Both the position numbers and the translations under genes were made by a program. From an uncultured Eubacterium sp. (GTDB lineage Bacteria > Bacillota > Clostridia > Lachnospirales > Lachnospiraceae), in contig CAMEJP010000023.1 of assembly GCA_945920185.1 (NCBI GenBank), forward strand, positions 1-32,579: a stretch of DNA of 32,579 bases. The letters are read 5' to 3'. Every line of letters starts with the position of its first letter. Position 1 is the first letter of the stretch. Shown one piece after another: positions 2,246 through 23,411 of the stretch. Below the pieces are notes generated by a model that was not told where the DNA came from, did no database searches, and saw only the letters and a program-made list of their open reading frames with translations.

Positions 2246-2292
2246 GGTGTAAGGGTGCGTTCTTGGCAAACGCTTCGGAATGAGAGGCAATG

Positions 2293-3291
2293 ATGAAGAA
2301 AAATGGTAAGACCATAGCAAAGGTTGTTTGTATTATAATTATAATTTTGCTTTTGATTTATGCGGTTAAGGATTCTCTTCCGCAGATTGTGGCAGAGGTG
2401 CTTGATACGGCATGGTATACGGTTGCTTTGATTGTTGCGGCTACCGTTGTATATCATGTTATCGAAGGCGTGATTACGACTGATTTTGCGAGAATATATA
2501 ACCCTGAATTTACGCTTGTGAACGGCATTATGTGTGCCTGCTGCGCAAGCTTTTACAGGGTGGCTACGCTGGGCAGCGGAGCAGGAGTGGCTGCTGTATG
2601 TTTTTTAAATAAACATGGAATAAAGGCACATGACGCAACCGGAATGTATATGATACAGTATGTGCTTCATAAACTGTCGATAGCCGTATTCAGCGGCGTT
2701 TTTGCCCTTATAAATATGCACTGCATTATGAGGACTTTTTCAAAGTATACCGGAGTCCTTTTGGCAGGTTATGCGCTCACTGCGGTGATTGTGGTGCTGC
2801 TTGTGGCACTCTGTGTGTCAACACATTTTCACAGGATGTGTCTGTGGCTTCTTAGAAAGCTTGACATAAAACATAAGAATGCAGAAAAAATACAGACGGT
2901 TGAAGAATATTTTAACAACTTAAAAGAGGCTACAAAGGCTTACGAGGGTAGAAAATTTCTTCTTTTTAAGCAGCTTCTTATTAACATGGTAAAGCTTTCT
3001 TGTTGGTATATCATACCGTACATCATTTTGCATGACAGCGGAATAAATGTGCTGAATTCGTTGTCGGTTACATCGATGGCTACTGTGCTTGCGGGCGTTT
3101 TGCCTACTCCGGCAGGTATCGGTTCCATGGAATTTGTGTATACTACGCTTTTTACGGAGCTTACGGGTATGGTAAATGCAGCTTCTTCTGTTTTGCTGTA
3201 CCGGTTTGCCACATATGTTTTACCGTGTATTCTCGGCGGAATTGTTTTACTGGCATATAATTCATACAGAAAGAGAAAAGTTGAACTGTAG
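2293..3291 (+). CDS. Multi-pass membrane protein, LPG-synthase-TM / UPF0104 (YbhN-like) family
   Basis: About 332 residues with roughly eight hydrophobic segments. The C-terminal part carries the family hallmark PTPAGIGSMEF followed by a helix ending in LLYRFATYVLP and a glycine-rich last segment, as in the flippase half of MprF and stand-alone PF03706 proteins. The family includes the lipid-flipping half of lysyl-phosphatidylglycerol synthase; this copy has no synthase domain, so its substrate is unknown. Two adjacent ATG codons occur at 2290 and 2293. The ribosome site GAGAGG (2282-2287) is two bases from the first and five from the second, so 2293 is chosen. It lies between two paralogous GGDEF genes, which suggests, but does not prove, that c-di-GMP signalling and envelope function are linked here. 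Confidence 0.8.
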   Translation: MKKNGKTIAKVVCIIIIILLLIYAVKDSLPQIVAEVLDTAWYTVALIVAATVVYHVIEGVITTDFARIYNPEFTLVNGIMCACCASFYRVATLGSGAGVAAVCFLNKHGIKAHDATGMYMIQYVLHKLSIAVFSGVFALINMHCIMRTFSKYTGVLLAGYALTAVIVVLLVALCVSTHFHRMCLWLLRKLDIKHKNAEKIQTVEEYFNNLKEATKAYEGRKFLLFKQLLINMVKLSCWYIIPYIILHDSGINVLNSLSVTSMATVLAGVLPTPAGIGSMEFVYTTLFTELTGMVNAASSVLLYRFATYVLPCILGGIVLLAYNSYRKRKVEL

Positions 3292-22335: not shown

Positions 22336-22363
22336 GAAGTATTTCCCAAAATTGAAATTCATA

Positions 22364-22392
22364 TTGACAAATGCGAAATTGTGGATTATGAT
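22364..22392 (+). promoter_or_regulatory. Strong sigma-A promoter of the amino-acid ABC transporter
   Basis: Perfect TTGACA (22364-22369), 17-base spacer, TATGAT (22387-22392). The predicted start near 22398 coincides with the first base of an 11-bp hairpin, giving a ~155-nt leader before the binding-protein gene. Confidence 0.78.
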
Positions 22393-22398
22393 TTTTAC

Positions 22399-22553
22399 AA
22401 GGCAATGGAGCTGAAAGACTTCCGTTGCCTTTTAAATTTAACATATGGAGGAAAAGAGTAAAAGACAGCTTTTACTCTACGAGTTTGTGCCGAAGCGTCA
22501 CAAACATCGAGATATTAATTCCTGCGCTAACGCTTCGGAATGGAGGAAAAATT
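22399..22553 (+). promoter_or_regulatory. Highly structured 5' leader of the ABC transporter; candidate cis-regulatory RNA
   Basis: Three hairpins in a row. H1: AAGGCAATGGA (22399-22409) with TCCGTTGCCTT (22421-22431), 11 pairs with one G-U. H2: AGAGTAAAAG (22455-22464) with CTTTTACTCT (22469-22478), ten perfect pairs around ACAG. H3: GTTTGTG (22483-22489) with CACAAAC (22499-22505). The nine-base loop of H3, CCGAAGCGT (22490-22498), is exactly complementary to ACGCTTCGG (22530-22538), four bases before the ribosome site GGAGG (22542-22546). Part of the loop could form a pseudoknot with the start region or, with H3 open, a nine-base helix next to the SD. No T-box consensus and no riboswitch class I can recognise is present. 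The arms also form part of an open frame from the ATG at 22445, but that frame overlaps the binding-protein gene and lacks a ribosome site. Confidence 0.6.
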
Positions 22554-23411
22554 ATGAAAAACGTAAAAAAAGTAATTTCAATGCTGCTTGTAGCAGTGCT
22601 TTGTCTTGGAGTTTTGGCTGCCTGCGGTTCAAAGGACAAAGATAAGGCAAAGGATGAGAGCAAGTCAAATGCTCCTGAGAAGACCATTGACATTTCAGGC
22701 GTCAAGCTTATCAATGACGGTGTTCTTACAGTAGGCTGTGAGGCAGGATATCCGCCTTTTGAAGATATTGCAAAAGACGGTGTCACACCTATCGGTTATG
22801 ATATTGATATCATAACAGAGGTTGCCAACAGACTTGGACTTAAGGTAAATATCATCAATACTGCATGGGACGGAATATTTGCAGGCATTGATGTAAATTA
22901 TGATGTTGTATGTTCTGCCGTTACGATAACACCTGATAGAAAAGAGACAATGATTTTCTCTACACCTTATATTAACAACTATCAGGCTGTTGTTGTTCCT
23001 AAGGGAAGCAAGTTAGACATCAAGAGTTTCAAAGACCTTGACAAGATGACAATTGCACTTCAGAAGGAAACCACATCAGATATTCTTATGTCAGATTACA
23101 AGTCAACAGGAACCATTGATATAGAGATAGTTGCAAACGAGAAGCTTACAACATGCTTTACACAGCTTACAAACGGTGAGGTTGATGCAGTGGTTGTAGA
23201 CAGCACCGTAGCAGACGGATATATCGCAAGAGAGCCTGAAAAATATACGATTATTTTTAAGGACGAGAGCGAATTTGAACAGTTTGGTATTGCCATGGGC
23301 AAGAAGAACACAGCACTTCAGAAGGCTATAAATGAAGCACTTGCCGATATGGAGGCAGACGGTTTTATTGCTGAAACATATGATTATTGGTTTGGTTCAG
23401 GCACAAAGTAA
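22554..23411 (+). CDS. Polar amino-acid ABC transporter substrate-binding lipoprotein
   Basis: Family 3 solute-binding protein that captures an amino acid outside the membrane and delivers it to the permease. 285 residues from the ATG at 22554, seven bases after GGAGG; a longer frame from 22425 runs through the leader RNA and is not coding. The signal peptide ends in LAAC, so Cys24 is the lipid anchor, followed by a Lys/Asp-rich linker. Motifs LTVGCEAGYPPFE, GYDIDII and FSTPYINNYQ are typical. Ligand class (glutamine, cystine or other polar amino acid) cannot be fixed from sequence alone. It is the first gene of a three-gene transporter operon directly after the glutamine hub. Confidence 0.93.
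   Translation: MKNVKKVISMLLVAVLCLGVLAACGSKDKDKAKDESKSNAPEKTIDISGVKLINDGVLTVGCEAGYPPFEDIAKDGVTPIGYDIDIITEVANRLGLKVNIINTAWDGIFAGIDVNYDVVCSAVTITPDRKETMIFSTPYINNYQAVVVPKGSKLDIKSFKDLDKMTIALQKETTSDILMSDYKSTGTIDIEIVANEKLTTCFTQLTNGEVDAVVVDSTVADGYIAREPEKYTIIFKDESEFEQFGIAMGKKNTALQKAINEALADMEADGFIAETYDYWFGSGTK

Follow-up and report, generated by a model that had tools for sequence, protein, structure and literature searches.

Results

Leader of the transporter gene

In this study, the leader of an amino-acid ABC transporter gene was analysed within the window, which is the whole stretch of 32,579 nucleotides. The features of this leader, together with one further copy of the same element in the window, are as follows.

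22364..22392, + strand: sigma-70-like promoter, TTGACA-17-TATGAT, matching the consensus at 11 of 12 positions; prediction only
22399..22431, + strand: 5'-terminal hairpin, an inverted repeat with an 11-bp stem that includes one G-U
22445..22455, + strand: left SD-containing direct repeat ATGGAGGAAAA, identical to the 11-mer at 22540-22550 and fitting the flanking-repeat pattern of the family
22455..22478, + strand: hairpin A, perfect 10-bp stem with a 4-nt loop; full-length copies have a hairpin in the same place
22480..22509, + strand: hairpin B, the most conserved part of the element, with a bulged A at 22506 (alignment A1)
22490..22498, + strand: 9-nt loop of hairpin B, CCGAAGCGT, the 5' strand of the putative pseudoknot; perfect complement of 22530-22538, with covariation
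22510..22529, + strand: linker, lacking the hairpin C that is present in most relatives (alignment A1)
22524..22533, + strand: competing local hairpin GCG-CTAA-CGC, which uses the pseudoknot strand; seen in the sequence, with covarying counterparts in relatives
22530..22538, + strand: 3' strand of the putative pseudoknot, ACGCTTCGG; perfect complement of the loop, with covariation
22540..22550, + strand: right SD-containing direct repeat, containing the working SD, GGAGG at 22542-22546, as judged from the sequence and the flanking-repeat pattern
22554..23411, + strand: gene for an amino-acid ABC transporter substrate-binding protein (NCBIfam), start ATG at 22554
2261..2298, + strand: further copy of the element, reduced by 5' shortening to its 3' module and preceding an ORF at 2290; found by profile search and consensus BLAST

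The transcript start predicted from the promoter, at about 22399, coincides with the base of the first hairpin. The initial annotation had described three hairpins, one of them a perfect 10-bp stem, and all are present (22399-22431, 22455-22478 and 22480-22509), the second having the 10-bp stem. It had also proposed that the entire nine-base loop at 22490-22498 is complementary to the SD-proximal strand at 22530-22538, and the two match perfectly in sequence; this strand ends three bases 5' of the GGAGG. The complement is far beyond chance, as had been claimed: when the 48 nt downstream were shuffled 20,000 times, an exact complement of the loop arose in 16 of the shuffled sequences. Moreover, the leader folded better than 200 of 200 dinucleotide shuffles (z = -3.84) and contained 3 perfect inverted repeats of 9 nt, where shuffles had a mean of 0.05.

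A repeat family in the same genome

BLAST of 22340-22620 against the genome of origin gave 46 matches, and all except the locus itself were restricted to about 22450 onward. Since none of the remaining matches in the genome extends over the hairpin at 22399-22431, this hairpin is private to the window locus and lies outside the conserved repeat unit. A covariance-model search of the same genome gave 63 hits at E<=1e-3, a few of which were a palindromic copy hit a second time on its other strand, and the count of about 60 copies rests on the model and BLAST searches together. All 36 first-round copies lay in sense directly 5' of the start codon of an ORF, and distinct ORFs followed 63 of the 68 anchored 3' ends. 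Copies were in the sense orientation relative to the downstream gene throughout.

The element is modular, consisting of an optional hairpin A, hairpin B, an optional hairpin C and a 3' module with the SD at its end. The window copy has hairpins A and B, lacks hairpin C and measures about 105 nt, against about 130-150 nt in full copies. Copies of a second subfamily at unrelated loci of the genome were mostly 90-96% identical over 136 nt. The 3' end was fixed and the 5' ends varied among copies, with many 5'-eroded copies lacking hairpin B. In one shortened copy (L040), an apparent flanking repeat proved to be a mutated arm of hairpin C, and the 5'-short copies are therefore no evidence of truncated insertion.

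Several arrangements were observed beside these. Tandem head-to-tail copies occurred at three loci (L084, L128, L193), as if the SD of an older element had received a newer one. In full copies such as L081 and L126, the first bases of the element, GTGTGA, come after the left SD copy and can be read as a start codon and an immediate stop codon. By eye, copies at L180, L234 and L075 lie between T-box-like leaders and proS-, trpE- and valS-like genes, forming compound leaders.

Distribution and downstream genes

Of 299 genomes sampled from the window's bacterial family, 25 carried the element, often with at least 10 copies among the matches listed. Among 341 Clostridia genomes only two matched, and both were from this same family. 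Because a pattern scan of named genomes gave almost solely Lachnospiraceae-type records (Roseburia, Acetatifactor, Eisenbergiella, Lachnospira, Parablautia and others), we infer that the carrier family is Lachnospiraceae. Among distinct copies from further loci, 149 of 163 preceded an ORF of at least 50 aa, a count that is favoured, though not created, by the model ending in ATG. The 207 proteins encoded downstream of copies fell into 190 homology clusters, and the genes concerned include those for RidA, DusB, SigG, GlmM, Upp, Cmk, type III pantothenate kinase, acyl carrier protein, FeoA, IspF, RuvA and GpsA.

Conserved fold and covariation

Covariation in homologues, which the initial annotation had named as a test, was found. 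In 97 distinct relatives the structure was 95.9% paired, with compensatory double changes in 22 of 27 pairs; the alignment had been fitted to two of the hairpins (B and C) and not to the pseudoknot. None of 500 shuffles matched the observed pairing, and slid controls did not come close either. Pair 19/146 alone occurred as GC (53), AU (21), GU (10), CG (5) and UA (2). The helix of hairpin B was 98.8% paired, with double changes in five of its six counted pairs.

The loop of hairpin B and the 3' strand also changed together, at loop position 4 (A-U/G-C), position 8 (G-C/A-U) and position 9 (U-A/C-G), and wholly rewritten pairs of loop and strand were present (CGAGAACGC/GCGTTCTCG and CGCAGGCGT/ACGTCTGCG). 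The nine-base complementarity narrows in relatives to a pairing core of about 7 bp, in which loop positions 3-9 pair best and positions 1-2 are the least paired and often unpaired. Because those first two positions pair least, the data would suit a pseudoknot of the H type in which the crossing loop is short and the second stem has 7 bp. Within the own genome the loop was nearly invariant and the pairing was lost in 3 of 18 copies, and support from covariation therefore comes mainly from other genera. Counts of G-U against A-C gave no clear decision on which strand folds.

Competing helix and openness of the SD

The pseudoknot strand can also pair locally with bases just upstream, in hairpins of the AGCG-UAAA-CGCU type. 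Tested copy by copy, as the columns of alignment A2 are poorly aligned there, this local hairpin exceeded shuffled controls (mean 3.36 against 2.52 +/- 0.07). It covaried with changes in the strand (AGCAT/ATGCT, GACGC/GCGTC, AGCGA/TCGCT, GAACGT/GCGTTC). The pseudoknot and the local hairpin are mutually exclusive, having this strand in common. When the strand was held occupied, mean predicted SD openness in a nested-fold approximation rose from 0.30 to 0.52, with an increase in 60 copies and a decrease in 12. For the copy in the window, this calculation gave no SD-opening effect from the pseudoknot.

Flanking repeats and empty sites

A second SD-like stretch lies directly 5' of hairpin A and tends to match the right-hand SD of the same copy. 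The left flank and the copy's own right SD had a word of 10 nt or more in common in 39 of 154 copies, against 11.2 +/- 2.4 when flanks were permuted (maximum 18 in 300 permutations), and the match extends to unusual SD variants (AACGGAGAATA, AACGGAGGTTA, AAAGAGGTCAGT, GAATCGGGGTAAAA). About two thirds of full copies are without a long flanking repeat, which needs decay as an explanation.

At one site (L116), one genome (G263) carried the element, and in 17 congeneric species the space between the genes was short and contained no full element; G318, among these 17, retained a lone 3' module. The valS and L111 sites were empty in another genome (G299). These clean empty sites derive from copies with eroded or nested flanks. 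In another genus, two species (G012 and G670) had the copies at L083 and L149 in common, with an SD repeat on both sides, and the L150 site in G670 lacked the element, its upstream region being rearranged. The L113 site was too diverged from its congeners for a readable alignment. Three identical copies (L085, L142 and L143, genome G093) all sit in one larger repeated palindromic unit, and they are therefore not independent insertions.

Terminal inverted repeats were absent from full copies, in which the ends GTGTGAAAAATC... and ...CGCTCCGG are not mutually inverted. Neither a transposase nor an autonomous relative of the element was found. A single reverse transcriptase gene was found in the genome (424 aa, L041 312-1586). 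It lies about 0.7 kb from an element copy (L041 2267-2332), on the same contig (C58) and on the opposite strand; as a mobiliser it was set aside, having no evident link to the element. The one Y1 protein in the genome, an IS200 TnpA-like protein of 155 aa, likewise showed no evident link to the element.

Discussion

The region 22445-22550 is probably an inserted small non-coding element of mobile type that is restricted to one bacterial family, targets the SD and leaves a pseudoknotted 5' UTR behind. Sequence comparison shows dispersed, sense, start-codon-adjacent copies before unrelated genes, SD-containing direct repeats at the flanks of many full copies, empty orthologous sites in congeners and a fold kept by compensatory changes. 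A directional insertion process would target SD sequences, roughly of the form GGAGNNTA, and would duplicate about 8-11 nt of the target. One copy of the SD would thus be left at the 3' edge of the element, and translation of the gene would continue from it. The pseudoknot may pack beside this SD and occupy the strand that is able to pair with it (CUYC against GRAG), and may in this way insulate the start site from the sequence upstream. If the pseudoknot were broken in favour of the local hairpin, the SD would tend to close, and individual copies could serve as translational modulators.

The leader had initially been read as a translational switch dedicated to the amino-acid importer. A metabolite-sensing riboswitch specific to this gene would account for the strong fold, the SD-adjacent pseudoknot, the covariation, the competing hairpin and the transporter gene downstream. 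However, units of identical type precede unrelated genes in about 60 copies in the own genome, no Rfam riboswitch or T-box was matched, and the unit is present or absent between congeners; this explanation is largely refuted and is now barely tenable. The proposal of a structured RNA with a covarying loop pairing was upheld, but its dedication to the importer was not, in view of the 190 clusters among 207 downstream proteins, the SD-containing flanking repeats and the presence or absence of the element between congeneric species. Since the downstream genes are unrelated, the element is unlikely to sense a ligand particular to the import of amino acids, and the functional reading as an importer switch is very unlikely. 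The idea of a translational switch fared in two ways: the competing, covarying hairpin speaks for it, but in the window copy the calculated pseudoknot does not free the SD. Two exclusive helices with a mixed effect on SD openness thus make a regulatory switch in the element possible. Such a switch might belong to a global regulon of the host, in which a factor acting in trans, be it a protein, a small RNA or temperature, reads the choice between pseudoknot and local hairpin in units that were transposed and then retained by function. Both helices on the one strand covary, placement 5' of start codons is strict and some copies are kept across species (L083 and L149 in G012 and G670), all of which would be expected of a regulon. 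However, the downstream genes lack functional coherence, presence varies site by site within a genus and many 5'-eroded copies lack hairpin B, and we consider a regulon unlikely.

As to how the proposed mobile element moves, two routes were weighed. Retroposition of a SINE-like RNA with a fixed 3' end, by target-primed reverse transcription into SD sites, is in keeping with the absence of terminal inverted repeats, the variable 5' ends, the direct repeats of variable length, the maintained structure and the strict orientation. The 5'-short copies, however, are without flanking repeats, as in simple 5' erosion, and the single reverse transcriptase gene of the genome is without an evident link to the element; this route may be entertained, but it is rather doubtful. 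Mobilisation in trans by a DDE transposase, as in a conventional MITE, would suit a short, non-coding, folded element with flanking repeats. Its ends, however, are not inverted repeats of one another and its orientation is sense only, and such movement seems improbable. Non-inverted ends and sense-only orientation fit a textbook MITE poorly and would be compatible with target-primed retroposition or some other directional process. It is distinctly improbable that all parts hold together, namely a SINE-like element with the SD as its target, an RNA intermediate and a pseudoknot/anti-SD switch that gives genes controllable, self-supplied start sites.

Small interspersed repeats are common in bacteria. 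If the preferred reading of an SD-targeting insertion is true, the ribosome-binding site is itself the target and is duplicated, and translation is restored by a pseudoknotted leader, which would be a distinct route to a harmless insertion. The element would then rewire the 5' UTRs of dozens of genes in gut Lachnospiraceae, many of them housekeeping genes, and it can mislead searches for riboswitches, as in the window leader. Should the competing helices act as a switch, translational control would have been spread genome-wide by transposition.

With respect to known families, the initial view that the leader belongs to no riboswitch or T-box class agrees with Rfam 15, which gave no match at gathering scores in the window or in 20 loci with other copies; nor is there a common pathway downstream, as would be expected of a riboswitch or T-box (190 clusters for 207 proteins). 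TD-1 and TD-2 are multi-copy elements of Treponema denticola, and TD-1 resembles the present element in being filed in Rfam as a cis-regulatory structured RNA. The window copy scored below threshold for both (20.5 of 64.5 bits for TD-1, 26.6 of 48.7 bits for TD-2) and the other copies gave no hit at E<=1, and membership was rejected.

BOX, RUP and SPRITE of Streptococcus pneumoniae are small interspersed, modular, folded, transcribed and mutually inserting repeats, of which BOX and RUP end in inverted repeats and prefer convergent intergenic sites, and BOX may adjoin T boxes (PMC3049150). The present element too is a small interspersed, modular and folded repeat, but it differs from BOX and RUP in lacking inverted ends, in lying at start codons and in its single orientation. 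REP sequences are described as GTAG/CGTC-tagged palindromes of 20-40 bp that occur with RAYT (Y1) transposases (PMC3733652). The element shares with the REP/RAYT system dispersed hairpin elements that are possibly moved in trans, but at about 130-150 nt, pseudoknotted and start-codon-proximal, it departs from the length and ends given for REP. MITEs are likewise short, non-coding and folded, with flanking direct repeats and without an enzyme of their own, and a flanking target-site duplication of approximate length is seen here in the correlated SD-containing flanks (permutation test); the element differs in lacking terminal inverted repeats and in that the duplicated target is the SD. Literature searches found no published description of the element, which is outside every family tested and is apparently an undescribed, family-restricted, structured element of mobile type that targets ribosome-binding sites.
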